The notes beneath the pieces were generated by a model that searched no databases, had not been told where the DNA came from, and saw only the letters and a program-made list of their open reading frames with translations. This document shows, in pieces, positions 701 to 47,374 of a DNA stretch of 64,000 nucleotides; position 1 is the first letter of the stretch, and the number at the start of each line of letters is the position of its first letter. Source of the DNA: Craspedostauros australis (Eukaryota > Bacillariophyta > Bacillariophyceae > Mastogloiales > Achnanthaceae). The DNA lies in NCBI GenBank assembly GCA_026770025.1, contig JAMXDE010000022.1:1122501-1186500 (forward strand), written 5' to 3'. Made by a program: the position numbers and the translations under genes.

Positions 701-908
701 TGAACTTCAACTCTATTGTAAAATCACATTGTCAGTGGAAAAGCAAAGTAGCATGCTGGTATTCCAACCCGGAGCCTCAGGTAGAATTTCTGGTGCTCTG
801 CTGTTGAGCTACAGGTGCTGCAGTTGCTGAAACGGACAAATGTGTAATTTATAGATAGTGGGAGCTACGGGAGTAACGGACTTAACACTAAACGGATATA
901 TGCTGATA
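701..908 (-). repeat. Diverged solo LTR of the tRNA-like TRIM family
   Basis: On the minus strand this 208-bp stretch starts TATCAGCA and ends GTTCA, and aligns end to end with the 206-bp LTRs at 15183 and 15640. The shared order is a block with GTTACTCCCGTAG and CCCACTATCTATAAAT, then TGTAGCTCAAC and GAGCACCAG, a damaged B-box region, then CTTTGCTTTT. It lacks the purine tract and primer-binding site of the intact copy, and I see no clean target duplication. It is best read as an old solo LTR, showing that the family is multicopy. Confidence 0.7.
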
Positions 909-10384: not shown

Positions 10385-12106
10385 ACTCGTGATGAGTCGT
10401 GATAAAGTAGACTAAAATAGAGCACACCCAAAACCATCCAAACAACTGCTTATGATGTTATATCTCAACAACACATCGTTTAAAATTAAAACTAGACAGT
10501 GCATTCGGACGCTTGGCTATCGCTTATTCTGAATATCGAAGTTACAATTGTATGAACTTTATTTTTAATGTCATTTTGGCTTGCTGTCAGTCAGGTGGTG
10601 GGTGCGAAAAATTCTCGATGGCACCATGCTGCCCTCCCTTCAGCACCCATGATCATCATTATCATCCCTGGCATTTTCACAATCTGCGCACCACATTGGC
10701 TCCGGATACCCCCCATCTATCCACTTCATGAAGATCCTGCGCAGATAGGCTCATCTCATACTCCAAACTGTCCCTGCACTGAAAAGCAGAAGTTTTGAAA
10801 ACACGATTTCGATGCTGATGCCATTCGGATTTGGATCCGTATCTCGTCGATACGATCCTTGCAGCTCCTCCACATGCCCCTCATGCGTTCCCACATTCTC
10901 TGGAGACACACTGATGTGTTCAGAATGGGTGGGGAGTTCGTACCTCCAAAGGTACATCTCCATGTGATGATGCCATCATGCTGTTTTTCCGACACCCCAA
11001 AAAAACCATTTTTTGTGCATCCCAGGCTGCAGCCTCTTCCAGACCGTATCTGCGCAGGATACTTCGTCATAGCCATCTTGAGTTGATTACGAACACATCT
11101 TGTATGAGTGGCTTGGCGATTTGGGTGACTTGTGAACGGCACCCATCACCACCCAAGTCACGTGATGTGTCCGCCGCCACCCGCCAAAAAACTCTTGCTC
11201 TCCACTTGTTTCTTGCGGAGGGCACCTTCCAGGCCACCCCCGACCCTCAAACTTCGTGTGAATCTTCATCGTATCCTCTTAGATACGTCTTGCCCATCCA
11301 TGGTCGTTGGAATGGCCTGTGCATTCCAGGCAGAGACCATATCCAACGAGCTGATGTTCCTCCGAATCGTATCGTTTGCGCGTGGGCCTGCGACGGCCCC
11401 AAATCAACCACTCCGGCAACCCCCTCTCGCTCATCCACCAAGATTTACATGGCGGTTCCGCCTATGCGCTCAGATCTTGCACTGGACCGCTGGTTGTGGC
11501 AGTGCCGTCGATGCCGTTCGACGGCGCTTGAGGAGTTTTGTTGTGTTTCTCCATTGTCGTGTTGTTGTGTTGTGTTTGGTGTTCTCAACCAGTTTTTGCT
11601 GTTGGGGGCCATGGAGATTAACCACAATTCTACCGAATGTGGCAACCAATGAGAACACTTTGCGAGTCCCGAATTGCGAATCCATTCCACTTCGATTCGA
11701 AAGATCCAAGAAAACTACTCGAAAGAATTCGGAAAATGTGATGCGGGTTTCAGACCCAAGACAAAATTAGGAAGATGATCCAAGAGGATCAAAGAGACTC
11801 TATTAGACCTCCAAACATGTGTCATAGCACATGTTTGGACACAGATAAACTAATTAGCAGGAGTAACCAGCAGTTTGGCATGGTTACAACACGATGGACA
11901 ATGGTGAATAGCACCATTAGTGGAGCCAAGAAGTAGAAAACAGGAAGATGATGAGCTCTTATTGATGAGCTCATAATCTCAACAAACTTAACTTTGTAAA
12001 CCATCACTTCAAACAAGCACACACAATAACACAGTTCTATCAACCTTCACCCACATTGGACGTAGTTGTATCATCCTGCAACCACTGAACTCTTCACCTT
12101 GCAAGC
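10385..12106. other. Mariner-like element 5' region
   Basis: About 1.7 kb without a recognisable ORF precedes the transposase start. The stretch 11420-11640 resembles 9715-9930 in the nested TIR element: both contain CATCCACCAAG, ACATGGCGGTTCCG or the like, and CATTGTCGTGTTGTTGTGTTG. Whether one element captured this from the other or both took it from the host cannot be told here. Confidence 0.5.
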
Positions 12107-14659
12107 ATGCTGCGCGTTGGTGACTGTGTGAAGGTGGCACCCCACCAGAGCGCAAGTGGCAGGGTCCATGACCTGGGCGTATGTCATGTTGAGTTTGCAA
12201 TGAAGCAGACCACGGACGGAGCTACAGTCAAACGCGACAGGCCTCTTGCACCAGGAGAGGTGGCAATGGTCATGGTGACCCCAGTGATGGGGCAGAGCCG
12301 AATGTATGTTGCTCGTGAGGATCTGTGCGCGCCACACAGCCTCGCTACCTTCGCACGGACTCCAAACGCTGGTGGCCTTGCTAAGCCTTCCCTCCTTTCT
12401 CCCCAGCATCACTCCGTCGCTGCCACACGTGCCAACAACAAGGCGAAGCCCCCCACACCATCCCCAACTACCACGGAATCGCAAGACGCCAAAATCGCAG
12501 CTTTCCTCGAGGTCTCGCGGCAGCAGAAGGCAACAGCAATCGCCCGTCTCAACAAGCAGATGAAGAGAGGCGCAAAAACAAAAGGATGGATGCGAAAGGA
12601 TGGAGGGTGTAGCAACACTAAGATCATCAATAGAAAGAAACAACTTGGCAGAGACGAACATCAAAACTACATCGTTCTCTATTTCAATTTGGGTGGGATC
12701 CCAGCCAACATGAAATTGATCGCCCACGCGTGGGATATTGGCACTAGCACTGTCGATCGCAACATCAAGAAATTCCAACAGAACAAGCTGGAACGGAAGA
12801 AGCGCAGCGATGCGGGCAGCACCATTTTCACTTGCCCCAAGAAGCAACAGCAATACTTCACGCCGCGTGCCATCTTCGCAAAGCAACTGCGGCTTAAGCA
12901 TCCCAGACAACGGTTGACAACTGAGGACATCTCTTATGCCTTTGACCATGCTTCGCCTGAAGAGCTGGCATCCGCAAAATCCCTGTCTGATTCGTGGTTG
13001 GAGCGTGGTCCCTTCCTGCAAGTTGAGCTCCAGGATGTGTTGCGACGATGCAATGGCGCAATCTCGTGGGACGATGTTGCACGCGAACTAGCAGGAAACG
13101 GCAACGTCCAATGCGTCTGCAAAGACACCATCCGAACATACGTGATGGGATTGGAGGGCAGCGAATACCGTTCCACAACAATACTCCCCAAGATCAAGGG
13201 CGACACGAAGGCAAAGCGCGAGATCTGGGCCAAGGACTTCTGTGTGTTCTGGGAAGCAGCTGAGCAGTTCGAGAATACACAAGTTGTTGTTGTCCACATG
13301 GATGAGAAGTGGTTCTACTCTATTGTCGCTCGGCGCAACCTCAAACATGTGCCCCAAATGGGGGTTAAGCCTGTGAAGCATCCTGTGCACCACAAGTGCC
13401 ACATCGAAAAGACCATGGCAATTGCATCAACAGCGTTCGCTCCAACAGACAACCGCTTTGATCGAGGAGGAAAGGCGTATCGGGTCAGCTTCGAACGTGT
13501 TGGGCGCATGGTTCGAGCGCAGAAGAATACGTACAAGCGAACTTGGGTCTCGCCAACCAAGTACAAGCACCTTCCTGATCCCAACAAAATCTCTCGCAAG
13601 AAGGGTGAACTGTACTTTCAACCACTGGAGATCACGGGCAGCAAGGAAACAGATGGTCATCGTGTTAAGCCCAAGCCGAAGTACAGCCTCAAGAAATTCT
13701 TCCGCGAAAAAGAACTCCCTGCACTGGATTCGCTCGCCAGCAAAATCAAGGCCGAAACGGGAAAAAACGTGGTGATTCGGTACCAGATGGATGGCGCAGG
13801 GCCACACAGAGACACGGAACTGCTCAGGTTCATCAACGAGGAGTTCGACAGTCGCGGGTGGCACCTCCGATTTCAACCATCGAATTCTCCCATCACGAAC
13901 GTGAAAGACGATACGATATTCCCAGCGATGTCGAAACACGTGTCAGCGCATCAAGGTAAGCACCACGGGAGTCGCATGTTCACCACTGATGCGTTGTGGG
14001 GTGCTTGTGGAACCTGTTGGGAGCAATTTGGGCTGGACAAGGTAGCTCGCGCGTATGTTCGCCACCATCAGATCGCCTACGCAATTTGTGCTGCGGAAGG
14101 AGGTGACGAATTTGTGACGGAGCGCAAGGGACTGAGCATGAACGTGCGGAAGCAAACGTTCACCGAAACTGACGAGGACGGCAATGAGATCGGTGTGACT
14201 GTGTCTCACACGGACTTCGTGTTGGAGGAGGAGGAGGAGGATGAGGCAACCAACACGACCACCAAGAAACCAACTGCAACAGGCAAGAAAGGCAAATCAG
14301 CTGGCTTCAAATACAACAAGCCCGACATCAAAGGTATGTACAATGATGCGCTCAAGGTGATGGCTGTCAGTGGTCTGCAATGCCTTAAAACGAACCTGCG
14401 AACAACCAGCAGCCTCATTCCGTTGCTGGAGAAGCAAATCGTCGCGACCACCAGAGCCAACGAGGAGGCTGAGCAACAGAAGAAAGGCCAGAAGAAGAAG
14501 ACGCCCAGCAAGAGCAAAGCCGAGATCATTGAGCCTCACAACAACAAGAGCAAGACCGAAGCAGCACCCACCATGAATACATTCAAAGTTGCCATGTTCG
14601 TTGGCAAGACCGAGCATCACAGCAAAGCAGAGCAGGATGCCAACACAGCAGAGGTGTAG
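12107..14659 (+). CDS. Mariner-like (DD39D) transposase, 850 aa
   Basis: The intact ORF has the Tc1/mariner catalytic motifs in order: HMDEKWF (Asp near residue 398), YQMDGAGPH (Asp near 561), and PSNSPITNVKDD, whose second aspartate lies 39 residues after the previous one. That spacing fits the DD39D plant-type mariner group. A helix-turn-helix-like region (residues about 190-300, with DIGTSTVDRNIKKF) precedes the core. The N-terminal 100 residues, with a VGDCVKV start like a small beta-barrel domain, and the acidic then lysine-rich C-terminal 150 residues are extra compared with compact mariner transposases. It is expected to cut and paste the surrounding element at TA sites. No stops or frameshifts are visible, so it may still be active. 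Confidence 0.85.
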   Translation: MLRVGDCVKVAPHQSASGRVHDLGVCHVEFAMKQTTDGATVKRDRPLAPGEVAMVMVTPVMGQSRMYVAREDLCAPHSLATFARTPNAGGLAKPSLLSPQHHSVAATRANNKAKPPTPSPTTTESQDAKIAAFLEVSRQQKATAIARLNKQMKRGAKTKGWMRKDGGCSNTKIINRKKQLGRDEHQNYIVLYFNLGGIPANMKLIAHAWDIGTSTVDRNIKKFQQNKLERKKRSDAGSTIFTCPKKQQQYFTPRAIFAKQLRLKHPRQRLTTEDISYAFDHASPEELASAKSLSDSWLERGPFLQVELQDVLRRCNGAISWDDVARELAGNGNVQCVCKDTIRTYVMGLEGSEYRSTTILPKIKGDTKAKREIWAKDFCVFWEAAEQFENTQVVVVHMDEKWFYSIVARRNLKHVPQMGVKPVKHPVHHKCHIEKTMAIASTAFAPTDNRFDRGGKAYRVSFERVGRMVRAQKNTYKRTWVSPTKYKHLPDPNKISRKKGELYFQPLEITGSKETDGHRVKPKPKYSLKKFFREKELPALDSLASKIKAETGKNVVIRYQMDGAGPHRDTELLRFINEEFDSRGWHLRFQPSNSPITNVKDDTIFPAMSKHVSAHQGKHHGSRMFTTDALWGACGTCWEQFGLDKVARAYVRHHQIAYAICAAEGGDEFVTERKGLSMNVRKQTFTETDEDGNEIGVTVSHTDFVLEEEEEDEATNTTTKKPTATGKKGKSAGFKYNKPDIKGMYNDALKVMAVSGLQCLKTNLRTTSSLIPLLEKQIVATTRANEEAEQQKKGQKKKTPSKSKAEIIEPHNNKSKTEAAPTMNTFKVAMFVGKTEHHSKAEQDANTAEV

Positions 14660-15169: not shown

Positions 15170-15182
15170 TATACTGCAGTTT

Positions 15183-15388
15183 TATCAGCACAAAACCGAA
15201 TAGTGCTAAGTACGTTACTCCCGTAGCCCCCACTATCAATAATTTTCACTTTTGTTCGGTTCAGCAATCGCATCGCCTGTAGCTCAACGGTAGAGCACCA
15301 GTAATTCTAACTGAGGTTCCGGGTTCGAATCCCGGCATGGTACTTTGCTTTTGCTCTCCCCTCGTGATTTTTCGATAGTGCTCTTTCA
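15183..15388 (+). repeat. TRIM left LTR (206 bp)
   Basis: It starts TATCAGCACAAAACCGAATA and ends GATAGTGCTCTTTCA. It differs from the right LTR at only a few positions, so the insertion is fairly recent. Confidence 0.88.
15275..15344 (+). ncRNA. tRNA-like Pol III promoter sequence in the left LTR
   Basis: TGTAGCTCAACGGTAGAGC gives a perfect four-pair D arm (GCTC/GAGC) and an A-box match, and CCGGGTTCGAATCCCGG gives a perfect T arm containing B box GGTTCGAATCC. The middle arm CCAGT-AATTCTA-ACTGA pairs four of five. The acceptor stem does not close (TCGCCTG against CATGGTA), and position 33 is A rather than T. A functional tRNA is therefore unlikely, but an internal RNA polymerase III promoter is plausible. 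Confidence 0.7.
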
Positions 15389-15425
15389 GATTAACAGTCG
15401 CAGCTAGTTCTACATCGCTGAGTTA
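15389..15425 (-). promoter_or_regulatory. TRIM primer-binding site, antisense to a tRNA-Asn 5' half
   Basis: Read on the minus strand the sequence ends TGCGA-CTGTTAA-TC, which fits an anticodon stem and loop with U33, anticodon GUU and A37, that is tRNA-Asn. Upstream, TAACTCAGCGATGTAGAAC weakly resembles a D arm. A primer that ends inside the anticodon stem implies a cleaved half-tRNA, as known for Drosophila copia and yeast Ty5 with initiator tRNA. The identity of the tRNA is inferred. Confidence 0.65.
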
Positions 15426-15628
15426 GGACTACCTTGCACAACACGCCTTCGTGGGCGCGTTGCGATCACCGGATTTCGACCCAGTCTCACACTTGTCTGC
15501 TACGGCAGCACTCCCAACTTCGTCTGCACTATTAGCCGCCCAGCTTTGAGGGTGTCCCGCTGTGGGGAGGCCCGGGAGATGATAACTTTTCCGTCATAGT
15601 GCTCTTGAGCAGGTGGTCCACGGTCGTG
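15426..15628 (+). other. TRIM interior, non-coding
   Basis: No ORF of note. The sequence is GC-rich and contains CGGATTTCGACCCAG and AGGCCCGGGAGATG. I compared it by eye with 5S rRNA and with the copia C leader and saw no convincing match. Confidence 0.6.
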
Positions 15629-15639
15629 GCGTAGGGGAG
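15629..15639 (+). promoter_or_regulatory. TRIM polypurine tract
   Basis: GCGTAGGGGAG ends exactly at the right LTR. Copia C has CTATAGGGGAG in the same position on its coding strand, so eight bases (TAGGGGAG) plus the following TATCA are shared. Confidence 0.8.
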
Positions 15640-15845
15640 TATCAGCACAAAATCGAATAGTGCTAAGTACGTTACTCCCGTAGCCCCCACTATCTATAAA
15701 TTTCACTTGTGTTCAGTTCAGCAATCGCATCGCCTGTAGCTCAACGGTAGAGCACCAGTAATTCTAACTGAGGTTCCGGGTTCGAATCCCGGCATGGTAC
15801 TTTGCTTTTGCTTTCCCCTCGTGATTTTTCGATAGTGCTCTTTCA
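15640..15845 (+). repeat. TRIM right LTR (206 bp)
   Basis: It starts TATCAGCACAAAATCGAATA and ends GATAGTGCTCTTTCA, followed directly by target duplication AGTTT. The tRNA-like part runs from about 15731 to 15800 and is identical to that in the left LTR. Confidence 0.88.
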
Positions 15846-16674
15846 AGTTTTGAACGGTTTGGTCCCTGAGGCACTATGAACTGGGGGTGTTGTTGTGCGC
15901 TTTGCAGCTCTGAATAGGCACATTAACGATAAACGGTTCAAGCTGAAACATTCGGGCATTTTTTGACCCTTTCTATACCGATTGATGTGAATTTGAGACT
16001 AATTTATGCCTTCGCGTTCATTTTGACCCACAAAAGGCATTACTTAGACCCATTCTTGTCGATTATTGTTTGGCACATGTCAATACCGGCGCAATCAACG
16101 TCTATGAAAGTACCATTTGGGGCCAAGAGATCGCGTTTTGGGATCTTTGTGGCGTTGTTTCAGTGTGGTCATGTCGAGCGAAATGGTTGCGAGTCCATTT
16201 CCACTGGGTCGTATTCGACTGCACCAACGGACTGTTCAATCCTGCTCGGGCAGTTTTGGAGATTCCAAGTCACGAGCGAACACTGCTGCGGAATGCGAAA
16301 CTTCAATGTGTTCGTTTTCGATTCACCAAGTGGTATTCGACCGCGCCAACGGACTGCCCGATCCTGTTTTGGCGTTTCGGGCAGTTCCAAGTCACGCGCG
16401 GACGCTGACGCGGAGTTCATCGCTGCGATGGAAATGCGCCTGCTTCTGCGTGTACGCGTGGCCACACAGGAAGGAATTTGCATCTTGATGGAGCGTACGG
16501 TCATGCTGGTTTGTTTCAACGCAAGAAAACAACGGGAGCGCAACCAAGCACGCCCACAGAGAGCAGTGTTGCACAACATCACTTTCGGTTGCATCGCCAA
16601 CATCGCAAAAACGCCCCATCCAAACAAATCATTCCTGTCATAAAAACCGCGATGCTCACCCACGCAAACCAACA
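15846..16674 (+). repeat. MVGS-unit upstream module, second segment
   Basis: This continues the first segment after 9166. It aligns with about 28615-29350 through TTGAACGGTT, TACTGGGG / AACTGGGG, GCCCTTTC / ACCCTTTC, GAGACTAATTTATGCCTT / GAGACTATTTAATGCCTT and CCAACGGACTGCCCGATCCTG / CCAACGAATTGTCCGATCCTG. A motif around CGACTGCACCAACGG and CCTGCTCGGGCAG is repeated inside at about 90-bp spacing. The short ORFs in all frames have no recognised product. Confidence 0.6.
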
Positions 16675-16776
16675 CACTCTCATTCTCCCACATCAACCAA
16701 CCAGCCCATTCAGCCATCGACACATCGGTGCATGAACGCAGCGGCACATTCGCGCGTCCTTGTTCTCCCACATCAG
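16675..16776 (+). repeat. 80-bp minisatellite, left part
   Basis: One full and one partial unit of the repeat CATCAGTGCATGAACGCA ... GTTCTCCCACATCAACCAAC ... CCATTCAGCCATCGACA. Copia A entered the array within CATCAG, and the rest continues at 24620. Confidence 0.85.
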
Positions 16777-17561
16777 TGTCGAGATGTACATGTGAGTATA
16801 TGTCAAGATGTACGTGTATATGTGCATCGTTCACCTGTTATTCTCTCATACGCACTTGGACGGTATAACTACATTCGTGTCGATAGTATACTGTGATTCG
16901 TCAGAATTACAGGGGAAATGGAACACACGAAAAGGGGCAAGATTTCTGGAGGAAATTTGCAAATAACGATTTCTGGGAGAATCAGAATATCGTCCGTCCA
17001 TGCATCAATGGTACCAAGAGAATCTCGAGGTACTTCCCAACTAAACCTCAGATGACGATATCATCTGACAGACTACTGCATCACCAATGGAACGTGACAT
17101 CTGGAGAACAGAAGGACGCCTACTGACGTCGACAGGATGTCAACATGTCACCACGTCGACAGCTGTCTCCAAGTCAGAGCAGGAGGCGAAGATACGATGA
17201 CCCATGAAGATCATGGATACTGAAGGTGAACTTCAAATGGTAAGTACTCATGGAGTAGAAGCCAGTACTGAATGAACGGAGTGTCGAATGCGGAGCACGC
17301 ATCGAACACGGAGTATCGTGTAGCACGAGCACACGATGGAGAGAGAGAGAATGCAGAGAGGAGCGAGAGAGGATCTCGCGTACCGACTCATAGTCGGAGA
17401 CCGAATCTACGAAACAGATTGAAGCGCCGAGAGCATCGGGCAAGACAACTGGTGTACACCGAGAGCATCGGAGTAGCCAACTAATGAAATAGCAAACAGA
17501 CGACTATCAACCACCACCATCTTCCACGATCGTAGGTTACCGTGAGCGGAACTTGCCAACA
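16777..17561 (+). repeat. Copia A 5' LTR (785 bp)
   Basis: It begins TGTCGAGATGTACATG and ends CTTGCCAACA. The ORFs inside are identical to those of the 3' copy and are not genes. Confidence 0.93.
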
Positions 17562-17573
17562 CGTTTATAAACG
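17562..17573 (+). promoter_or_regulatory. Palindrome at the copia A primer-binding position
   Basis: CGTTTATAAACG directly follows the 5' LTR and is a perfect 12-bp palindrome. Copia B and copia G have different 12-bp palindromes at the same position. No complement to a tRNA 3' end is evident, so the priming mechanism is unclear. Confidence 0.7.
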
Positions 17574-17643
17574 ATAGATCAGGGCGAGCCCGCGAATCGT
17601 ATCGTGCGAGGAAGACGAACATCATTCAAGAGCAGCAGGCTGA

Positions 17644-20600
17644 ATGAGCGAGGAAGAGGAATTGAAAGACATCCCTCTGTCCAATCCGACTATCAAGAGA
17701 GAAGAAGGTGCGAGTGAGACTCCACCACGACAAGAGAAGGAAGCAGCCGCGGCTACTGTCCTATCAGGCGCAGACGCAAGCGCGATCGACGAGACCGAAG
17801 AAGAACGGTCTGCAAGACTACACCGTAAGGAGAAGAGGATTCTCAAGGCGGTCAAGCAAGAGGAGACTGGTGTGACGAAGAGCATTCGCACAGCCAAACA
17901 GGGTGGGAAAAGTGAGACACCACCAAGAGGAGAATTTGTGAGCAAATCAGTCCTCGCGAAACAACAAGCGAAAACCGAAGAATCGGAAACACAGAAACCG
18001 ACGGAAATCAAGGGCGCGAGCGCACTAACGACGAAACAACGAACCAACATGGCGACATCAGCCAACATGAACAAACGACGCATCAAGGCGCCGATGTTCA
18101 GCGGTGAACAGGAAGACTACAGCGCATGGGAGTCCCAAGCGAAGGCATACGCTCGTGCACAGAAGACGAGAGACGTGATGTTGGGCAAGACCAAGGTACC
18201 AACAGTGAAGGAGATCGCGGCAGCCGCCGATGAAGATAAGGAAGCGATGGAGGAGATCTACGAATTAGGATGCGACTGTTTCAGCGATCTGATCCTCATG
18301 ATGGATGCAGAGAAAGGAAAAGGTAAGCAGGCCATCCAATACATCAACCAATGCATCTCCGACGACTACCCCGAAGGAGACGCACACGGAGCGTGGAACG
18401 TTCTCGCGGAGAAGTTCCGACCATCCGATGCGGTGACGAAGATCAAACTCAAGCGCCAATTCAACAACAAAAAGATGAAGAGAGACACGGACCCCGACAT
18501 CTACATCACGCAACTCGAGAGCCTACGATCGCGTCTCCACGATGTCAAGTACGAGATCACGGACGAAGAAATGATCATGCAAATCCTCAGCACGGTGAGT
18601 AACGAATACAGAACTCACATCGTGAACTTCCAACACCAACTCACGTTCAATCCGGAACTGGTTACCATCAACACGATCAGAGGAGTACTCCGCACTGCAT
18701 ACGCCACGCACAGAGGAGGCAAAGCATACGTCGACGACTTCCAAGACAGTAACACGAAGAGCAACGACACCGGCTTCACAAGCACCGGTAACTTCAAGGG
18801 TACTTGTCACAACTGTGGCGTGTATGGCCATAGATCCGCCGATTGCCCAGAACGCAAGAAATCGAATAACAAGAAAAACAACAACAACAACAACAACAAG
18901 ATGAACGGAAAGCGCAACAAGGGAAGCGGCTTCAAGGGCAAGTGCAACTACTGCGGCATCTTCGGACACCGCGAGGCGGAGTGCCGAAAGAAGAAGTTCA
19001 ACGAGAAGAAGGCCGACGAGCAGGCCAACACAGCAAAGCAAGGACACGACAAGAGCGGACACGAGATGGTACTCTCGGCAAAGGACATACCGCTCTGCAT
19101 GTTGGTGTCCGACGACTACATCGAAGACTCCTTCTTCGATAACTTCGAGTACGTCGGGAGTGACGACGAAGTGCAGGGTGATGAGATCATCCCGGAGTGG
19201 CTCAGCGAGGAGCCAATCATCCACGAGGTGGATCCAAGACGCGAAGTGAGCTACGAATGCTGCTTCAACGCGCACGACCTGATCGGTTCATACGGCGACG
19301 AAGCTGAGATGGACGAAGAGGCCAACGATAGCGACATCGAAGAGGCCATGAGCGATGACGACGACGACGCTGACGAGGACGGCGGAGATGAAGACGACGA
19401 AACGAACGGCGGCGCGGCGCCGCCTCCTCCAGCGGCGGGGAACAACAGATCGGGCATCTTCGACGAAGATGACAGCGACGAATCCGAAGACGGCAATCAT
19501 CCAGACGACAGTTTTAATCCGAACGAGCGCGTCGTCTATCCAAGAGACATCGACTTCCCACCGATTGAGAATCCCAACCAGTCCAACTACCTCCATCGTC
19601 ATGACACCGTCCCATATGCAACAGAAACAGCATTGGTGATCCAGAAGCAACTCATCTTCCATGCCGTAATGGAAGCAGGAACGAACCTCTTCCCAGGGCA
19701 TGTCCAAGGAGTGCTCAGACCGATATGGGTGAACATGATGGGATCAATCCTATCCGAGAACTTCAAATCGATCGAAGAGATTCTCGCCAATTCGGTTGTG
19801 ATCAATCGCATACTGGAAGCAGCCGAGACAGAGACGATCCCAGAGACGGATCTTCATTACATCCTTGGAGGATGTATGCGCGTACTCTTACGCGAACGAC
19901 CACGCGTCCACCCATACGATCCAGCCACAGGATCTCATCGGAACAGTACAATTCCATCGGACTACGCGCAACTACCCGACGACATGGATGACGGAGACCA
20001 TCATCATCCATACAACGAAGATGGAGTCCACGAAGACGACAACGACGGCAGCTTCAACGACGAGATAGCTGCGGCAGCTGTGGAGCAACTCCACGAGCTG
20101 AGCACCAAGTACAAGGACAAGGTCAACAAGGACACCTGGCTCGCCGACAGCGGAGCTTCGTGTCACATCGTCAACTCGGACGCCGCTCTCTTCAACGTGC
20201 GGCACGTCAAGTCCTTCGTCCAAGTGGGAGACAGCACGAAGCTGGATTCTCCCAAGATGGGATCCATTCGCTTGAAGGTCAAGCAGCGAGACAACACTGG
20301 CCACGTCATCCGGCTCGATGACGTGAAGTACACACCGAAGATGGCGGTGAACCTTTTCTCCACGAACAAGGCTCTGTACAACGGTTACCAACTTGGTAGC
20401 AACGGCATTCTGATGGACATCATCAACGGATCCGGAATGAAGATCGTGTTCGATCGAGTCTTTCCCACATCCAACGGATTCATCACGGGAGTGCAGATGC
20501 ACCCCATCATGCCAACAGACGACGACAAGGCTTGCACAGCCATCGTCAAGAATCCATCCAAGGAGATCAGCGCGGTGAACCTGCACCGAATGCTCGGGCA

Positions 20601-23600
20601 CGCGCCGCTCGAGACCATGAAGCGGACAGCCGCTCAGTACGGATGGAAGATCATCGGCGAGATACCGGTGTGTCGCGACTGCGCGGTTGCGAACGCGAGA
20701 GTGAAGAACATCCCGAAGGCAACCATTCCAAGAGCGACTCGCCGCGGCGAACGGCTCTTCATTGACATTAGTTACACTAAACACATAAGCTTTGGAGATA
20801 AACGCTACTGGACCTTGATCGTGGACGACTGCACGGATCACTGCTGGAGTTTCTTTCTCAAGAACAAAAGTGATCAGCCAGGATACATCAAACGATTCGT
20901 CCAGACGATCAAATCACAGACTGGTGATCAACAAATCATCTTCCGAGGTGACAACAGCGGAGAGAACAAATCCACGGAGGATGTTCTCATCGATGCAGGA
21001 CTCAACGTGAAATTCGAATACACGGCATCAAACACGCCGCAACAGAATGGCAGAGTGGAACGCAAGTTCGCATACCTCTACACCAAGATCCGCTCCATGC
21101 TCAACGGAGCACACCTCGACGAAGAGTATAGGCATGGCCTGTGGGCAGCAGCTGCTAGCACTGCCACCGCCATCGCCAACATCACCGTAGCGAAGAACCA
21201 GAAGGAGTCACCACATCGACAATTCTTCGGCAACGATCCACCATATGCGGATGCACTCCGCACGTTTGGAGAGGTGGGTGTTGTGAAGACTACCTATGGC
21301 GGGATTACTGCCAAGCTCAAGAACAGAGGAGAAGAGATGGTGTTCATCGGATATGCACACCAACATGCATCAGGGGTCTACAACATGTACAGACCATCGA
21401 CCAAGTCACTCATCTGTTCACGGGACATCAAGTGGCTCAACCAATCATACGGACAGTTCCGTGGCTGGGCACCAGCACCGAACATATCCAACGAGACAGG
21501 AACAACGGACGCAGACGGCTTCACAACCATCGGACGGAAGGGAGCAACGCCAAGGACGGCAACGCGTCAAGCATCGAAAGCAAGGAGAGTATCCTTTGCT
21601 GACAGTAACATGTACTATATCCTATCAGACAGCGATGATGAGGATAATGAGGACGACGGAGTAGCAACTCCATCAGTCCATAACGACGAGGAAGATCGGA
21701 GCGAATCCAATCACGAGAATGACGAGATCATACCATCCGGCGACGAAACCGACGATGACACAGGCGTCACTCCTCCGAACACACCAGCGAGGTCTACACA
21801 TGGCACACCATCCAGACCTCCACCGAGCAAGCCAAGCAAGCGTGACATAGCTAGAAAGGAGAGGATCCGACGTCACGAAGCACGAGGCAGGAAGGGAGAA
21901 GTTAATCCCAAGCCAACTACAGGGAAGAGTATTTCCAGAGCTCTGCGCGAGCTCGCAGACTTCAACGAACGAGGTCGAAAGGAAGAAGGCTATGAAAGCG
22001 ATCCATCATCCAATGAGGCGAGTGACGAACTCAGCGACGAGATGATCGACGACTCCAACAATGAAATCACAGATGACGAAGAAATCGAAGACAAAGATGA
22101 AGAGGTCGAGATCACTCACCATAGCACAACTGGATTATACGGGATGAATGCAATCATCACCGAGAGACCAGCGATCGACATCGGATTGTCGATGCAGGAC
22201 GAGAACAAGGAACCAGAGAAGCACATCGAACCAACGACATTCGATGGAGCCTTCAATCATCCAGATCCCATTCATCGAAGGGGATATCGAGCAGCCATCA
22301 AGAAGGAGTTTGACTCCATGGATACACGCAAGGTGTATAGCAAGATCAAACGAAACGCCATCCCACACGGCCGCAGATGCTGCAAATGCAAATGGGTCTT
22401 CAAGCTGAAGCATGACGGCACACATCGAGCGCGGCTCGTTGCATGTGGCTATTCACAAGTCGCAGGAGTAGACTTCCAAGAGCATTATTCACCCGTCATC
22501 CATGACGTGACCTATCGGGTCATGATGGTGATCATGCTAATCAAGAAGATGGACTGCGCACTCGTCGATGTCGTAACGGCATTCCTACATGGAGACCTTG
22601 ACGAGGAGATCTACATGAACTGTCCCAACGGGATGGATCATCAACCAGACGAAGCCCTGACCCTACACAAGCCAATCTACGGACTTGTGCAGAGCGCCAG
22701 GCAATGGTTCAAGATGTTGGTATCGACCCTCAAGAATATCAACTTCGAACAGAGCGCAGCAGACCCGTGCCTGTTCTACAGGAAGACGAACGAAGGAAGC
22801 ATGATCGTGGCCATCTACGTGGACGATTGCTTCTGTTGTGGAGACTCCAAGGCATTGGAGATATTCCTGAAAGACATCCAAGGCAGCAAATTCAAGGTGA
22901 CAATCGAGCGCGGACTCGGAGACTACCTCAGCTGCAATATTGAACTGAACCATGACAAGACTAGAGCGACATTGCGTCAACCACATCTCATCCGACACCT
23001 CATCGAAGAGTTCGGAACCAAGGTTGAGAAGATGCAACGCCATGGGACACCGGGAACCCCGGGCCAAATCATCGTACGACCATCCGAAGATAACGGACTA
23101 CAGAAGGTCGGACCGGAAGAACATGCCGAATATCGCCGAGGCGTCGGTATGCTACTCTTCCTCATCAAGCACTCGCGACCAGACATCGCGAACCCTGTGA
23201 GGGAACTCTCCAAGGTATTGATCGGGCCCACCAAGGCCGCAATGAAGGAGATGTACCGGATCATCAAGTATGTGATAGATACAAGGGACTATGGATTGAA
23301 GATCCATCCAGCGCGTCCAGACGACGACGGCTGGGACATGGAGTTCTTCTGCGATAGCGAATATGCAGGAGACAAGAACACAAGAATCAGCGTAGGGGGA
23401 TTCATCTTATACCTGTGCAAGGTACCAATCCTTTGGCGATCCAAAGCACAAAAAGCCGTCACACTCAGCTCATCCGAAGCAGAATACGTTGCCCTTTCCG
23501 AAGCGGCAAAGGAAATCTTCTTCGTTGTACAGCTACTCGAAAGTGTGGGCGTCCCAGTGAAGACACCGATCAAGGTCCGCGTGGACAACATCGGAGCGAT

Positions 23601-23814
23601 CTTCATCGCCAAGAACCCATCAACATCCCAACGATCGCGGCACATCGACGTGCGTCATCACTACGTGAGGAACATGGTAATCAACAAAACCATCGAAATC
23701 ATTTTTGTCAAATCCGAGCAGAACACAAGCGACGGATTCACCAAGAACATCAAGGCCGACTTGCAACGTGAACACGAGAAGTCGTACCTTGACACATCGA
23801 GAACATTCGAATGA
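17644..23814 (+). CDS. Copia A Gag-Pol polyprotein, 2056 aa
   Basis: Gag occupies roughly the first 380 residues and is followed by two CCHC zinc knuckles (CHNCGVYGHRSADC near 388 and CNYCGIFGHREAEC near 434). A long acidic spacer (about 500-770) precedes the aspartic protease motif WLADSGASCH (Asp 835). The pre-integrase HxxxGH..CxxC region follows, then integrase with D1041, D1103 and E1139 (DD35E). A second acidic spacer leads to reverse transcriptase with YVDD at 1725-1728 and RNase H with D1904, E1945 and D1981. Order PR-IN-RT-RH is diagnostic for Ty1/copia. The ATG lies 82 bases after the LTR. No interruption is seen. The acidic Gag-PR spacer is unusually long. Confidence 0.97.
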   Translation: MSEEEELKDIPLSNPTIKREEGASETPPRQEKEAAAATVLSGADASAIDETEEERSARLHRKEKRILKAVKQEETGVTKSIRTAKQGGKSETPPRGEFVSKSVLAKQQAKTEESETQKPTEIKGASALTTKQRTNMATSANMNKRRIKAPMFSGEQEDYSAWESQAKAYARAQKTRDVMLGKTKVPTVKEIAAAADEDKEAMEEIYELGCDCFSDLILMMDAEKGKGKQAIQYINQCISDDYPEGDAHGAWNVLAEKFRPSDAVTKIKLKRQFNNKKMKRDTDPDIYITQLESLRSRLHDVKYEITDEEMIMQILSTVSNEYRTHIVNFQHQLTFNPELVTINTIRGVLRTAYATHRGGKAYVDDFQDSNTKSNDTGFTSTGNFKGTCHNCGVYGHRSADCPERKKSNNKKNNNNNNNKMNGKRNKGSGFKGKCNYCGIFGHREAECRKKKFNEKKADEQANTAKQGHDKSGHEMVLSAKDIPLCMLVSDDYIEDSFFDNFEYVGSDDEVQGDEIIPEWLSEEPIIHEVDPRREVSYECCFNAHDLIGSYGDEAEMDEEANDSDIEEAMSDDDDDADEDGGDEDDETNGGAAPPPPAAGNNRSGIFDEDDSDESEDGNHPDDSFNPNERVVYPRDIDFPPIENPNQSNYLHRHDTVPYATETALVIQKQLIFHAVMEAGTNLFPGHVQGVLRPIWVNMMGSILSENFKSIEEILANSVVINRILEAAETETIPETDLHYILGGCMRVLLRERPRVHPYDPATGSHRNSTIPSDYAQLPDDMDDGDHHHPYNEDGVHEDDNDGSFNDEIAAAAVEQLHELSTKYKDKVNKDTWLADSGASCHIVNSDAALFNVRHVKSFVQVGDSTKLDSPKMGSIRLKVKQRDNTGHVIRLDDVKYTPKMAVNLFSTNKALYNGYQLGSNGILMDIINGSGMKIVFDRVFPTSNGFITGVQMHPIMPTDDDKACTAIVKNPSKEISAVNLHRMLGHAPLETMKRTAAQYGWKIIGEIPVCRDCAVANARVKNIPKATIPRATRRGERLFIDISYTKHISFGDKRYWTLIVDDCTDHCWSFFLKNKSDQPGYIKRFVQTIKSQTGDQQIIFRGDNSGENKSTEDVLIDAGLNVKFEYTASNTPQQNGRVERKFAYLYTKIRSMLNGAHLDEEYRHGLWAAAASTATAIANITVAKNQKESPHRQFFGNDPPYADALRTFGEVGVVKTTYGGITAKLKNRGEEMVFIGYAHQHASGVYNMYRPSTKSLICSRDIKWLNQSYGQFRGWAPAPNISNETGTTDADGFTTIGRKGATPRTATRQASKARRVSFADSNMYYILSDSDDEDNEDDGVATPSVHNDEEDRSESNHENDEIIPSGDETDDDTGVTPPNTPARSTHGTPSRPPPSKPSKRDIARKERIRRHEARGRKGEVNPKPTTGKSISRALRELADFNERGRKEEGYESDPSSNEASDELSDEMIDDSNNEITDDEEIEDKDEEVEITHHSTTGLYGMNAIITERPAIDIGLSMQDENKEPEKHIEPTTFDGAFNHPDPIHRRGYRAAIKKEFDSMDTRKVYSKIKRNAIPHGRRCCKCKWVFKLKHDGTHRARLVACGYSQVAGVDFQEHYSPVIHDVTYRVMMVIMLIKKMDCALVDVVTAFLHGDLDEEIYMNCPNGMDHQPDEALTLHKPIYGLVQSARQWFKMLVSTLKNINFEQSAADPCLFYRKTNEGSMIVAIYVDDCFCCGDSKALEIFLKDIQGSKFKVTIERGLGDYLSCNIELNHDKTRATLRQPHLIRHLIEEFGTKVEKMQRHGTPGTPGQIIVRPSEDNGLQKVGPEEHAEYRRGVGMLLFLIKHSRPDIANPVRELSKVLIGPTKAAMKEMYRIIKYVIDTRDYGLKIHPARPDDDGWDMEFFCDSEYAGDKNTRISVGGFILYLCKVPILWRSKAQKAVTLSSSEAEYVALSEAAKEIFFVVQLLESVGVPVKTPIKVRVDNIGAIFIAKNPSTSQRSRHIDVRHHYVRNMVINKTIEIIFVKSEQNTSDGFTKNIKADLQREHEKSYLDTSRTFE

Positions 23815-23822
23815 CCGAATGC

Positions 23823-23834
23823 ACACAGGAAGGG
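23823..23834 (+). promoter_or_regulatory. Copia A polypurine tract
   Basis: ACACAGGAAGGG ends exactly where the 3' LTR begins and lies just after the polyprotein stop. Copia B has AATGGAAGGG in the same position. Confidence 0.75.
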
Positions 23835-24619
23835 TGTCGAGATGTATATGTGAGTATATGTCAAGATGTACGTGTATATGTGCATCGTTCACCTGTTATT
23901 CTCTCATACGCACTTGGACGGTATAACTACATTCGTGTCGATAGTATACTGTGATTCGTCAGAATTACAGGGGAAATGGAACACACGAAAAGGGGCAAGA
24001 TTTCTGGAGGAAATTTGCAAATAACGATTTCTGGGAGAATCAGAATATCGTCCGTCCATGCATCAATGGTACCAAGAGAATCTCGAGGTACTTCCCAACT
24101 AAACCTCAGATGACGATATCATCTGACAGACTACTGCATCACCAATGGAACGTGACATCTGGAGAACAGAAGGACGCCTACTGACGTCGACAGGATGTCA
24201 ACATGTCACCACGTCGACAGCTGTCTCCAAGTCAGAGCAGGAGGCGAAGATACGATGACCCATGAAGATCATGGATACTGAAGGTGAACTTCAAATGGTA
24301 AGTACTCATGGAGTAGAAGCCAGTACTGAATGAACGGAGTGTCGAATGCGGAGCACGCATCGAACACGGAGTATCGTGTAGCACGAGCACACGATGGAGA
24401 GAGAGAGAATGCAGAGAGGAGCGAGAGAGGATCTCGCGTACCGACTCATAGTCGGAGACCGAATCTACGAAACAGATTGAAGCGCCGAGAGCATCGGGCA
24501 AGACAACTGGTGTACACCGAGAGCATCGGAGTAGCCAACTAATGAAATAGCAAACAGACGACTATCAACCACCACCATCTTCCACGATCGTAGGTTACCG
24601 TGAGCGGAACTTGCCAACA
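23835..24619 (+). repeat. Copia A 3' LTR (785 bp)
   Basis: It starts TGTCGAGATGTATATG and ends CTTGCCAACA, then target duplication CATCAG. It is near-identical to the 5' LTR. Confidence 0.93.
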
Positions 24620-25020
24620 CATCAGTGCATGAACGCAACAGCACATTTGCGCATTCTCGTTCTCCCACATCAACTAACCAGCCCATTCAGCCATTGACAC
24701 ATCAGTGCATGAACGCAACAGCACATTTGCACGTCCTCGTTCTCCCACATCAACCAACCAGCCCATTCAGCCATCGACACATCAGTGCATGAACGCGGCG
24801 GCACATTCGCGCGTCCTTGTTCTCCCATATCAGTGCATGAACGCAACAGCACATTTGCGCATTCTCGTTCTCCCACATCAACCAACCAGCCCATTCAGCC
24901 ATCGACACATCAGTGCATGAACGCAACGGCACACTCACATACTTCCACATCAATGCACCAGCACACTCATACTCCCACCTCGACCACCCAGCACAATCAG
25001 CCATTGACACACGCCCCACA
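24620..25020 (+). repeat. 80-bp minisatellite, right part, upstream of MVGS copy 1
   Basis: Two full 80-bp units, a shortened unit of about 50 bp, another full unit and then a decayed tail (CACACTCACATACTTCCAC...) lead directly to the ATG of MVGS copy 1. Each unit starts CATCAGTGCATGAACGC. Confidence 0.85.
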
Positions 25021-28319: not shown

Positions 28320-29480
28320 CAGACACACAACCACACAAGTAGAATCGACCAGGCTGGATCACACCAAACCAGCAACCGGCATGCACAGAGACACTGAGGG
28401 AGATTGGGCTGCTGTGTCGAACACTGCATGTGCCATCTTCGACTGGAAGTGCCGCGCTTGGACTAAGACATTCCATTGTTCTATTTCGCGTTCGGATCGT
28501 GGAACACGGACTTACTCATGTTGTCGCGTCTTGCGCTGTTTGGATCGAAACAGTGTTTCTCCTGTATTGCCTGGAGCGCATTGGCCCCACATGCTGGTCG
28601 GTGTGAACGCACATTGCAAAGTTGAACGGTTGGCGACATGAGGCGCCATGTACTGGGGATGTTGCTGTGGTGGTTGCAGTTTCAGACAGACACCTTCAGG
28701 AAAATTGGTAAAATCAACGACATATCGCATTTATTAGCCCTTTCTCATCCCATTTTGGCGTACGTTCGAGACTATTTAATGCCTTTTGCGTCGATTGGGA
28801 CATGAAAAACAAAATTTAGACTCAAATTTGTAGCGTTTTGTACACTTCATGCCACTATTGGAGATATCAGCGTCTTTGGGACGATTGTGTTGCGGATTAG
28901 TGGGAATGTGCTGAACCGTTGTTTCCAACCTGTCCCTACGAGGGTGTATTTAACCAATACAACCAAATGTCCCATCCTCCATGGTTTTTTTTTTTCAACA
29001 TTTGGAAACTTCCACCACGTCTGCTTCGGAATGTGACGTTGCGACTTGCTCGTCCTCTATTCGTGAGGTGGGATTTTGCCGCCCCAACGAATTGTCCGAT
29101 CCTGGATGGTCTTTTCACGACCTTGCGAGTCAACCGCAACCACTGGTGCGGAATGCGCTGTGGCATTTTCCTCCTTCTCAACTCACGAGGGTGTGGTTCA
29201 CCCCTACAGCTGACTGTCGAATCCTGCATGGCCTTTCCGCTACCTTGTGAGACCACGACCAATGACGATGGTTGTCACATGGTGACTCGTTTGCGCCAGG
29301 TTCTGTGCATGCCCATGACCAGAAAGAAACGCATCCGCATCGCGGCAGAGCACACGACCGTGCTGTTCGGCTTCAACACAAACGAAGGATGGGAGAAACA
29401 AAGGAGCCCACATGAACGCACCAGTACGCGCCAGTACGCGCCAGTACGCGCCAGTACACCCACAGCAGTGTTACAACACG
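28320..29480 (+). repeat. MVGS-unit upstream module, undisturbed copy
   Basis: This region aligns in order with the two segments at 8900-9166 and 15846-16674, without the mariner-like element or the TRIM. It fixes the pre-insertion sequence: GGTGTGAACGCACATTGCAA here corresponds to GGTTTGTATG-TA-TACTGCA there. It holds no recognisable gene. Four short repeats of CGCCAGTACG lie near 29422-29458. Confidence 0.65.
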
Positions 29481-29578
29481 ACAGCTCCAGTCGCAACGTC
29501 CACCAAAACGGCCATACATCCTGTCCAAACGAGTCGATGATCCCACAAAAACAAAATCGCAAAACTAAAAACACAACA

Positions 29579-30520
29579 CAACACCACACGACGCACCACA
29601 ACACAACACAACCCACCACTCTCATCACGACACACCACAACACAACCCATAACGATCACCACGACGCACCACAACATGACGCACCACAACACAACATGAC
29701 GCACCACAACACAACATGACGCACCACAACACAACATGACGCACCACAACACAACATGACGCACCACAACACAACATGACGCACCACAACACAACATGAC
29801 GCACCACAACACAACATGACGCACCACAACACAACATGACGCACCACAACACAACATGACGCACCACAACACAACATGACGCACCACAACACAACATGAC
29901 GCACCACAACACAACATGACGCACCACAACACAACATGACGCACCACAACACAACATGACGCACCACAACACAACACAACACAACACAACACAACACAAC
30001 ACAACACAACACAACACACCACAACACAACACACCACAACATGACACACCACAACATGACACACCACAACATGACACACCACAACATGACACACCACAAC
30101 ATGACGCACCACAACATGATGCACCACAACATGACGCACCACAACATGACGCACCACAACATGACGCACCACAACATGACGCACCACAACATGACGCACC
30201 ACAACATGACGCACCACAACATGACGCACCACAACATGACGCACCACAACATGACACACCACAACACAACACACCACAACACAACACACCACAACACACC
30301 ACAACATGACGCACCACAACATGACGCACCACAACATGACGCACCACAACATGACGCACCACAACATGACGCACCACAACATGACGCACCACAACATGAC
30401 GCACCACAACATGACGCACCACAACATGACGCACCACAACATGACGCACCACAACATGACGCACCACAACATGACGCACCACAACATGACGCACCATAAC
30501 ACAATGCACCACAACACACC
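29579..30520 (+). repeat. CACAAC-type satellite, 20-bp and 15-bp periods
   Basis: A long array precedes MVGS copy 2. From about 29680 to 29965 the unit is ATGACGCACCACAACACAAC (20 bp). After an ACACA-rich stretch, 30036-30495 has the 15-bp unit ATGACGCACCACAAC, with local ACACACC variants. The repeat has no stop codon in several frames on either strand, so the long ORFs here (over 300 codons) are artefacts. Confidence 0.95.
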
Positions 30521-30643
30521 AAAACGCACCAAAACGCAACAGAACACAACACGACGTGACACAACACGACGCAGCCACAACACGACGCAGCCACAACACA
30601 AACACACAACACCTTACACCAACGCACACACAACAACACAACA

Positions 30644-31720
30644 ATGGTGGGCTCTGATGTCCGTTTTTACAAAGATGGGCCTGATGCGGCTGCCTTGACG
30701 AAGGCACTAATTGACGACCCAACAAAATGGAACTGGGAGGCAGAACGTCTGCGTCTCCACCATTCATTTCTATGCAAGTATTATTCCAAAAAAATTGTTC
30801 AGACTCTACGTGACTTCAAACGAAGTTTGGTCAAAAAGAACTTGTTCCACAGTAAGTGCACATGTGGTTGAAGTAGTTCCGTGTCGATGTGTGTGCTGAA
30901 GTCTCTGTTCTCTGACCACCATGTGATCAAGCATCATTTGCGTACAACATCGTCATTCCACCCACGTCTCACCCCTTGCCTTTCTCTGTTTGTGGTACAC
31001 ACCAACATGTGTGGTTTGCACATTGCAAATGCAACAAAGTGGATGGCCAGCCCCATCAGATCTCTCAATCAAAACTTGGATCCAAGCTCCGTCCACTTGA
31101 CAACATGGACACCACGACATCCACCTCTGACAACCACAACCACAGCAACAACGTCTCCAACACATAAAGAGAACTAACAAGGAGCATAGTCACAGCCATG
31201 CAGCAAGAATCAGAAGTCCACGCCGTCGCAACCACCAGAGGGCACTCAAGCACACCCCAGCTTCAACCCCATGCTGCAGAGGATACTGACAGCAGCGTCC
31301 AGAGCATGTTGGATGCTTCAAGCCATGATTCCGATGTTGTGGACAGTGACTCCGACCATGACATTGGATATGTTGGAGTGAAACTTGAGCCAGTGTTACC
31401 CCACACAAGGATCCACCCAGTGGCCCCATCACTGCAAGGCTTCAACGTTTCTTCCACCTTCCAGAGGAGCAATGTGTCACACAGTTCCGTAAATTTCGTC
31501 GAACCATGGAGGTGTTTCACACAACACAAGTGTGGAGGCCTCCTGGTGAGAAGAATCGGATGATTGGTGTGGACTTCCACATGCCAGCCTGCATCACCAA
31601 ACGTGATGCAACTGTCACAATTGAGAGCCAAAAGGTTGGCAGCGTACCCCGCATGTTCCTTGTCCTCATCTACAAACCACCAGAGGCTTTTGGAAAGGAT
31701 GGGAGTATTGTTGATGTCAT
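30644..31720 (+). pseudogene. MVGS-family gene, copy 2 (truncated)
   Basis: Exon 1 (30644-30851) is open: MVGSDVRFYKDGPDA, PTKWNWEAERLRLHH, then SLVKKNLFH, ending at a GTAAGT donor. The acceptor is probably at 31038-31039 (ACAAAG), giving exon 2 with DGQPHQISQSKLGSKLRPLD. Phase agrees with copy 1. Exon 2 then suffers frameshifts between about 31165 and 31500. The conserved block returns as EVFHTTQVWRPPGEKNRM, VGSVPRMFLVLIYKPP and DGSIVD, and stops abruptly at about 31718, where sequence of YR copy B begins on the other strand. The C-terminal half is missing. Confidence 0.6.
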
Positions 31721-34487: not shown

Positions 34488-35213
34488 ATGGCACAACAAA
34501 ACAACACTGCCACTATGGATGTCACTGATATGCCACCAGACCAGAGGCTTCCAGGTACAGATGGTATGCTCAACTTCTTCAATACAGTGATGCAAAATCC
34601 TCAGATGTATCTCACACCCAAGGAGAAACAAGAGTTGAACAGAATGGAGAAGCTAGTGGATGCTTTCTTTGTTCACACCAGTCAAGAAGATGAAGACCAA
34701 CCAGATGACAGGCCAGACCACGACCCAGCCAGAGAGCCAATTGACTTCACCCTACATGAGACCTGGGAGGCAGTGTTCCCTGGAGATCACCTGGGAGCTT
34801 GCCTTTTCCTGTACATCACATGGGCTGTTCTCTACAGGGTTCCAACCATCAGCCTCCACACCATTGTGGCCAAGGATGCAAGGAGGGCTTATAATGAGAT
34901 CCACAAGAGGTTCCCCTCCTGAAGCAATATCCACAACGCAGCTACAGGGCTCAAAGCACTGTCTGAAAGCTCATCTACATTCTCCATCATCTACCACAAC
35001 CTCAAACGAATCAACATCAGATCAGCCCAGAATGTCCAGAGATCAGAGCCCCTCACTTCACCAGACATCATGAGGCTCCAACAAGCTGCACCACCCACCC
35101 CAGCTGGTTGCAGGGATATTGCTTTGCTCTTCTTCCTATTTGAAACTGGAGCAAGAGGCAAGGCAGCAGTCGGCAAGGCTATGAAGTGGCCATCCTACAA
35201 CAAGACCACCAAG
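34488..35213 (+). pseudogene. Tyrosine recombinase-like protein, copy C, N-terminal part
   Basis: It starts at ATG (MAQQNNTATMDVTD) and includes YLTPKEKQELNRMEK, LYITWAVLYRVPTISLH and, after an in-frame TGA at 34920-34922 (tryptophan in copies A and B), the catalytic arginine in FETGARGKAA. The frame is cut by copia B after NKTTK and resumes at 42594. Confidence 0.7.
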
Positions 35214-35990
35214 TGTTGGAAATCCGGGGTTATAGTAGTAGACTAATCTGTTATCAGTCTGTACCGTTTTAGAACTGTGAGCACAACATGCTCATCTCCT
35301 TTCGATTCCAATTCACAACAAGCATGATTTGCAGCGGCCACCCAAGGTTACCCCCTTTAGCTTGGCTCCTTTCGTCTGCATCTCCATCTTGCGTTCATCA
35401 TGGTTCATCGCTTGCTTAGCTGAGAGTTGGAGAGTACCTACATTCGTCAAGTTCATACTCGTAGACCTGTAGGTACCTCTCCTTCGGTCTCCTGTCACTT
35501 CACTGGTCCCACTTCATTTCAGTTCCTCCCTCCGGTCATCTCGATGGTTGCCTTTGGATGCTTGGAACTTATTGTCATCTGGATCGTGGTCTTGGGTGAA
35601 TAGGGATCGCCTCTGTTTCGCTTTCTCACATTAGGTTCTCAGGGACGCATCGACTTGTTCAGATATATTGGTTGTCGCGCTCATTCGATTCACTCAGGGC
35701 TGGTGTGTTGCCATCGTCATAGATCTCTCGGTTCCCGACCGTTATTGGGACATGGCCGAGTAGGCCACTGGATGAGGGTGCTTGGATGTCGCATAAGACA
35801 GGTAAGGCCATTGGGCTGTCCGAGTGCAACTGGTCGATTACTGGGTTGCGGTTTGTCTGGGAGATGCTATTGGGGGTTGCGGCAATCATAGGTATCTTTG
35901 CACTTAATACCATTCCGGTTCCAGTCAGTCCTCATGGGAGCTGCGGTAGAATAGGGTATCTTTGCAAAGTCGTACCCCCGATTCCTGACA
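35214..35990 (-). repeat. Copia B 3' LTR (777 bp)
   Basis: On the coding strand it starts TGTCAGGAATCGGGGGTACG and ends ATTTCCAACA. It contains two diverged copies of a motif around GGTATCTTTGCA near its coding-strand start. LTR relics at 1376, 1759, 55730 and 60446 share this start. Confidence 0.93.
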
Positions 35991-36000
35991 CCCTTCCATT
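35991..36000 (-). promoter_or_regulatory. Copia B polypurine tract
   Basis: On the coding strand AATGGAAGGG ends exactly at the 3' LTR start. Confidence 0.7.
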
Positions 36001-36086
36001 GTCGCACCACCATACTCACTCACACTCACAAATCATCTCTCGTCACACTCCCTTGTCTCGCTCTCGCACTCATCTCTTTTGTCCCA

Positions 36087-41738: not shown

Positions 41739-41804
41739 GGTGACTTGGTGGTGGTGTTTGTTGCTGTGTTAGTGGGTGATGGAAACGTTGGATTTCAATC
41801 GTAA

Positions 41805-47361: not shown

Positions 47362-47374
47362 TCGGGAGTCTTGT

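Follow-up and report, generated by a model that had tools for sequence, protein, structure and literature searches.

The 64,000-nucleotide stretch of Craspedostauros australis DNA analysed here (the window, to which positions refer unless a contig is given) contains, at 15183-15845, a non-coding LTR element of 663 bp. With a probability that we put at about 0.7, this is a TRIM of the Helenus type, i.e. a non-autonomous LTR retrotransposon whose LTRs carry a decayed tRNA gene acting as a Pol III unit, and whose mobility would depend on a Copia element. Of the initial annotation, which had proposed a TRIM with a tRNA-derived promoter in its LTRs, the structural part is supported by the anatomy of the element, its target site duplications (TSDs) and its copies elsewhere in the genome; transcription by Pol III is, judging from the sequences compared, probable.

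Structure of the element

The two LTRs, both of 206 bp and differing from each other at 6 positions, lie on the plus strand at 15183-15388 and 15640-15845, and the element is flanked on both sides by the TSD AGTTT (15178-15182 and 15846-15850). The 5' LTR starts with TATCAG and ends with TTTCA. Directly after it, the non-coding internal region of 251 bp (15389-15639) opens with GATTAACAGTCGCA, a putative primer-binding site (PBS, 15389-15402), while GTAGGGGAG stands directly before the 3' LTR, where the polypurine tract (PPT) TAGGGGAG occupies 15632-15639. In six frames, the longest ATG-started frame is 30 aa in this copy and 57-88 aa in 17 other full copies. The paired LTRs, the AGTTT duplication, the PBS, the purine tract and the lack of an ORF, all initially annotated, were borne out by the coordinates and by the six-frame scan. 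The element thus has the features that define a TRIM: a length below 1000 bp, two LTRs, no coding capacity, a PBS, a PPT and a TSD.

Each LTR contains a tRNA-like body, at 15273-15342 and 15730-15799. Scanning with a tRNA covariance model, recommended as a check, returned matches to the Rfam tRNA model in both LTRs (15278-15337 and 15735-15794), at 35.4 bits against a gathering score of 29 (E 0.0011); no further Rfam tRNA match with E up to 0.5 was listed for the rest of the window, and ARAGORN called no tRNA gene anywhere in it. In the 5' LTR, the A box TAGCTCAACGG (15280-15290) and the B box GGTTCGAATCC (15322-15332) are preceded by CAGCAA (15262-15267), a motif like that at host Pol III starts, and followed by CTTTGCTTTT (15343-15352), which includes a terminator-like run of four T. 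A TATAAA in the 3' LTR (15695-15700), starting 35 nt before nucleotide 1 of the tRNA, is missing from the 5' LTR of this copy. The internal region contains a TTTT (15587-15590) which 16 of the 18 full copies examined lack; by both traits, the window copy is among the older ones.

Decay of the tRNA-like body

The pairing of the tRNA stems was evaluated over the 71 distinct LTRs of the family, described below. Paired cells amount to 98.9% for the D stem, 96.3% for the T stem, 77.5% for the anticodon stem and 53.3% for the acceptor stem, where the letters of the T arm and of the 3' acceptor strand belonged to the pattern used for finding copies, so that their conservation is biased upward. Three of the seven acceptor pairs never form. 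The D and T arms of the initial annotation are thus supported, while the acceptor stem, given there as absent, is better described as degraded. The paired acceptor stem of a functional tRNA gene is not found in the LTRs of the family, and the stem is broken rather than conserved, as it would be in ordinary tRNA genes duplicated by chance. RNase P and RNase Z would excise an intact tRNA from the RNA, which may have favoured the loss of this stem. Among 17 host tRNA genes compared, the closest to the tRNA-like body is Arg-TCT, with 74.6% over 63 nt, a likeness that does not settle the source tRNA.

Copies in the genome

The assembly (74.8 Mb, 90 contigs) was searched with a 22-mer spanning the B box and the 3' acceptor strand, allowing up to 3 mismatches, a pattern which misses copies with a degenerate B box. 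It was found at 128 places, against none for the reversed control, which confirms that the element belongs to a family. Exact scans for the same 22-mer gave no match in viral_contigs and genome_contigs, both poor sources for algal DNA. Eighty stretches were examined in addition to the window, covering 100 of the 128 places; the 101 LTR matches found in them include 63 single LTRs as well as those of 19 complete elements, one of which holds a nested transposon, and the internal region has 21 matches. A count of complete copies with 5-bp duplications had been called for: each of the 19 complete elements carries a perfect 5-bp TSD. The same is true of 47 of the 63 single LTRs, where the TSD abuts the LTR ends and no tail is present. 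When copies were grouped by common flanks, 75 distinct sites resulted, 60 of them with a perfect 5-bp TSD, where a random pair of 5-bp sequences is expected to match about once in a thousand. The LTRs are identical within 16 of the 19 complete elements, the others being the window copy (6 differences), L077 (8) and L041 (1). PBS and PPT are present in the 18 full copies listed.

A diverged solo LTR of the family is present in the window too, as had been annotated; its extent, given as 701-908, is corrected to 713-908 (minus strand, 81.6% identical). Its TSD is not clean (3 of 5 letters) and it does not match the Rfam tRNA model. Locus L123 holds a relative of the TRIM LTR that has diverged further; it is followed by AATTAACAGTCGCAGC and keeps its ACTTTGCTTTTGC stretch, although much else has changed. 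Several TRIM LTRs found at different places have common flanks (L044/L045/L086, L085/L105/L108, L093/L111, L099/L116 and L101/L107), and were probably copied within larger duplicated segments.

Locus L041 (G000:C13), with LTRs 5853 bp apart, was considered as an autonomous relative with tRNA-like LTRs. This was rejected, the locus being a TRIM with a DNA transposon nested near its PPT. The 857-aa frame of the latter plainly resembles the frame at 12089-14659 of the window, for which a Pfam search gave no match. Of the two copies of this transposon (frames of 856-857 aa, window 12089-14659 and L041:3609-6182), one ends just left of the window TRIM, and the other is nested in the TRIM copy at C13, apparently at a TA.

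The candidate Pol III unit

Near-complete LTRs number 98, of which 71 are distinct. CAGCAA and CTTTGCTTTT occur in all 71, TATAAA, which begins 24 nt ahead of CAGCAA, in 62. With its 10 nt, CTTTGCTTTT forms the longest stretch of the LTR that shows no variation, a length reached in 1.2% of column shuffles. A second run of at least five T, besides the TTTT, is found in 53 of the 71 (summed from the tally); this downstream run is variable, GATTTTTC being its form in 45. Variation is 2.2% in the A box and 1.5% in the B box, the latter being part of the search pattern, against 4.2% in the upstream LTR, so that the boxes are just modestly better conserved.

For comparison, 17 host tRNA genes were collected from 16 of 20 stretches picked among the best 63 tRNA matches. 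They represent 10 types (Lys-CTT five times, Thr-TGT three times), several being near-identical, and are therefore not independent. CAA lies within 15 nt upstream of 12 of them and TTTTG within 30 nt downstream of 14, counts not reached in 2000 shuffles. The longer CAGCAA lies within 25 nt upstream of 5 of the 17, where shuffles give a mean of 0.09. TATA-like sites precede 11 of the 17, against 6.6 in shuffles, 2.8% of which reach 11. Taken together, TATAAA, CAGCAA, the two boxes and a TTTT set within the longest invariant stretch give the LTR a likeness to the cassette of a host tRNA gene. The scarcity of TTTT in the internal region, lacking in 16 of 18 copies, was dropped as evidence for Pol III, since 63-72% of shuffles lack TTTT as well. 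Among the tRNA matches of the genome, those on contigs C83 and C89 of G000 recur at an offset with equal scores, as if one organelle genome, which from its gene names we take to be mitochondrial, had been assembled twice. Contig C90 (133 kb) carries psbV along with genes named dnaB and rpl11; the best matches of the psbV product in the PDB are photosystem II chains of 8iwh, 6jlu, 6j3y, 7vd5 and 8j5k, which are diatom entries, in agreement with a diatom host.

Primer-binding site and candidate helper

The complement of the PBS corresponds to a tRNA anticodon arm with GTT, which makes the 5' half of tRNA-Asn the likely primer. Half tRNAs are known in diatoms: a putative 5' half of tRNA-Glu is reported from Phaeodactylum in the available part of PMC4247016. 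When up to 2 mismatches were allowed, the reversed 17-mer of the PBS was found at 84 places of the genome, against 13 for the control. All 20 exact places fall in the listed TRIM internal regions, and a 14-nt core, TGCGACTGTTAATC, is kept in 49 of the remaining 64 (counted by hand). A tRNA-Asn gene was sought at 4 of the 84 places and found at none of the four; L122 and L124 adjoin LTR ends of the CopiaC type, L125 an LTR-like end, and L123 the diverged relative of the TRIM LTR mentioned above. The 15-mer closing the anticodon stem, GCGACTGTTAATCGC, has 5 exact places (C7:275058, C11:1170149, C14:232396, C19:154466 and C19:184904); allowing 1 mismatch brings the number to 7, against 3 for the reversed control.

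Three Copia-like elements with RT-type frames, named CopiaA, CopiaB and CopiaC, are contained in the window (16776-24620, 35213-42596 and 46638-55090, with stop-to-stop frames of 2056, 1893 and 1849 aa). Within each, the LTRs are 99.7-99.9% identical, which suggests recent activity. Pfam detected RVT_2 in both frames searched, those of CopiaA and CopiaC. At 29471-30815 lies a long tandem tract of low complexity, which is open in three frames of the minus strand.

CopiaC, which sits 31 kb from the window TRIM, lies on the minus strand and is flanked on both sides by GCGGC. It consists of a 713-bp 5' LTR (54378-55090) with the form TATCA...TATCA, a PBS (54364-54377), a 1849-aa open frame (47375-52924; RVT_2, E 4e-23), a PPT (47351-47358) and a 3' LTR (46638-47350). 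CopiaC and the TRIM have in common the 5' LTR tip TATCA, the 14-nt PBS GATTAACAGTCGCA, the PPT TAGGGGAG and the TSD length, whereas the tips, PBSs and PPTs of CopiaA and CopiaB, the two other paired-LTR Copia elements of the window, differ from those of the TRIM. Outside the 14-nt PBS, CopiaC does not significantly resemble the internal region of the TRIM. It differs from the TRIM in its 1849-aa frame and in its long LTR, in which no Rfam tRNA match was found. Such sharing of PBS, PPT and LTR tip between the TRIM and a Copia element from its own genome is what mobilisation by the latter predicts, and CopiaC is the likely helper of the TRIM.

Composite elements

An 8.5-kb composite, here called C40 after its contig (G000:C40:418210-426665, minus strand), carries TCCAG on both outer sides and consists, in order, of a TRIM LTR, the internal region and LTR of CopiaC (94-96% identical), and then the internal region and one LTR of the TRIM. 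Identity to CopiaC is 95.8% over 967 bp, 94.0% over 5700 bp and 94.3% over the final 1140 bp, which include the CopiaC LTR; in the middle piece (L121), a frame stays open for 1716 codons and runs off the piece. The switch from TRIM LTR to CopiaC occurs at one PBS, and that from CopiaC to the TRIM internal region at the next. The outer LTRs differ at 2 of 206 bases, both in the tip beside the PBS: the 5' LTR ends in ATCA, as in CopiaC, and the 3' LTR in AATA. The ATCA end is also found in L042, a solo TRIM LTR.

Two further loci are partial composites. At L081 (C14), a TRIM LTR is joined to an internal region whose DNA matches CopiaC in the 14-nt PBS alone, and whose frame is a distant relative of the N-terminal part of the CopiaC frame (29% identity over 102 aa, E 4e-6, single comparison). 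At L043 (C5), the end of another repeat is joined to the TRIM internal region; whole or in part, this end occurs also in L049, L068, L085, L100, L067 and L109, in the last of which it likewise continues into the PBS. All four junctions known from the three loci sit at the LTR/PBS boundary, a position predicted by intermolecular transfer of plus-strand strong-stop DNA via the common PBS; L047 and L081 were noticed through GATTAACAGT after their LTR, and the look at junctions covered 4 of the 15 sites that lack a perfect TSD.

Proposed mechanism and alternative explanations

In the model that we favour, Pol III would start near CAGCAA, ahead of the tRNA-like body of the 5' LTR, leak past the TTTT of this LTR, cross the short internal region and stop at the TTTT of the 3' LTR, so that the R region would span approximately LTR nucleotides 80-170. 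The resulting RNA would be taken up into the particles of a Copia element belonging to the CopiaC group, and the 5' half of tRNA-Asn would prime on the common PBS, as complementarity suggests. Integration produces the observed 5-bp duplication. By way of the common PBS, plus-strand strong-stop DNA may also switch from one template to the other, which would generate composites with junctions like those found.

The tRNA-like body and the short length of the element might also suggest tRNA pseudogenes or SINEs adjacent by chance, a reading of practically negligible probability given the 19 complete paired-LTR elements with 5-bp TSDs, the 47 of 63 single LTRs that are tail-free with a perfect TSD, and the PBS and PPT of the 18 full copies. 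The copies examined do not occur solely as unpaired 206-bp units with SINE-type tails, the arrangement that would have told against an LTR element, and paired LTRs with 5-bp TSDs abutting their ends rule out a SINE identity. A reading with more weight than the former, though still unlikely, is Pol II transcription of the TRIM from the TATAAA of its LTR, the tRNA-like body being a captured passenger or having a role in another step, such as the folding or packaging of the RNA. By the established view, Pol II transcribes ordinary TRIMs and Copia elements; TATAAA is present in 62 of the 71 distinct LTRs, and the two T runs of most LTRs would impede Pol III; that a useful transcript must pass both of them in the 5' LTR of most copies is a point against the Pol III model. 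TATA-like sites, however, also precede 11 of the 17 host tRNA genes, so TATAAA is not evidence for Pol II alone. CAGCAA, box A, box B and TTTT are moreover ordered as in these genes, and there is no evident reason why the TTTT should be kept, inside the longest invariant stretch, under Pol II.

The C40 composite suggests that TRIM and Copia RNAs meet in one particle. We propose, tentatively and as something short of an even chance, that a TRIM RNA made by Pol III and a Copia RNA of the Pol II type are co-packaged, and that strand jumps driven by the common PBS put a Copia body behind an LTR of the tRNA-type Pol III class. The composites might instead have formed in DNA, the RNAs never meeting, by recombination of a one-LTR Copia circle with an integrated TRIM at the short stretch common to their LTR-PBS regions. 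A single crossover with such a circle gives the same order (LTR, body, LTR, body, LTR), and would agree with outer LTRs identical except in the tip beside the PBS; simple strong-stop transfer, on the contrary, should leave the TRIM's own tip, and the tip of the C40 5' LTR is CopiaC-like. Formation in DNA is nevertheless doubtful, because the common stretch, about 15-20 nt, is short for homologous recombination, and because three loci with different partners have their junctions in the same place, as transfer guided by the PBS predicts. If co-packaging does occur, it would offer a route for moving promoters between autonomous and non-autonomous elements.

Comparison with known systems

The initial annotation knew of no described example of such an element. 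This did not hold: TRIMs with tRNA-derived sequence in their LTRs were named Helenus in 2024, and the available part of that work (Kojima 2024, PMC10886601) describes them in fungi, Metazoa and Selaginella, argues for several origins, and regards a functional Pol III promoter as unproven. For most fungal Helenus, Copia helpers and priming at the anticodon loop are inferred there, tRNA-Asn-GTT appearing once; the evidence given for helpers is the likeness of the PBS, together with a single case of similar internal sequence in elements from two species of Puccinia. By its sequence the window element falls under the Helenus definition, which does not imply common descent with the published families.

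No other such diatom element was found in open-licence literature, searched by titles and abstract openings among the hits listed, with Repbase outside the scope; this is not proof of absence, and PMC10161547, in its available part, mentions TRIMs merely for comparison. As far as seen, what is new is the lineage of the host, a host-type Pol III cassette whose terminator is conserved, and the candidate helper and composites within the same genome. The range of Helenus-type elements, listed in 2024 as fungi, animals and plants, is thereby extended to a diatom, and a parasite is paired with its candidate helper in one genome, with recent copies and composites. In this one host, it becomes testable whether the LTR is a Pol III promoter, how the early terminator is passed and what makes the helper accept the RNA.

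Cassandra, as described in the available part of PMC7215508, likewise has Pol III promoter and terminator sequences inside a TRIM LTR, but these derive from 5S rRNA rather than tRNA, and its autonomous partner is called unknown there. The likeness to Helenus, as far as the available text goes, extends to the length below 1000 bp, the lack of coding capacity, the tRNA-derived boxes A and B in both LTRs, the PBS and the PPT. It further includes the 5-bp TSD, found in fungal and plant Helenus, a Copia-type helper, as inferred for fungal Helenus, and a PBS that, like that of most of the latter, appears able to pair with the anticodon arm of a tRNA. The differences from the elements in the available part of PMC10886601 are the host, a diatom here and fungi, Metazoa and Selaginella in its Table 1, and the presence, in the same genome, of both a candidate helper and composites.
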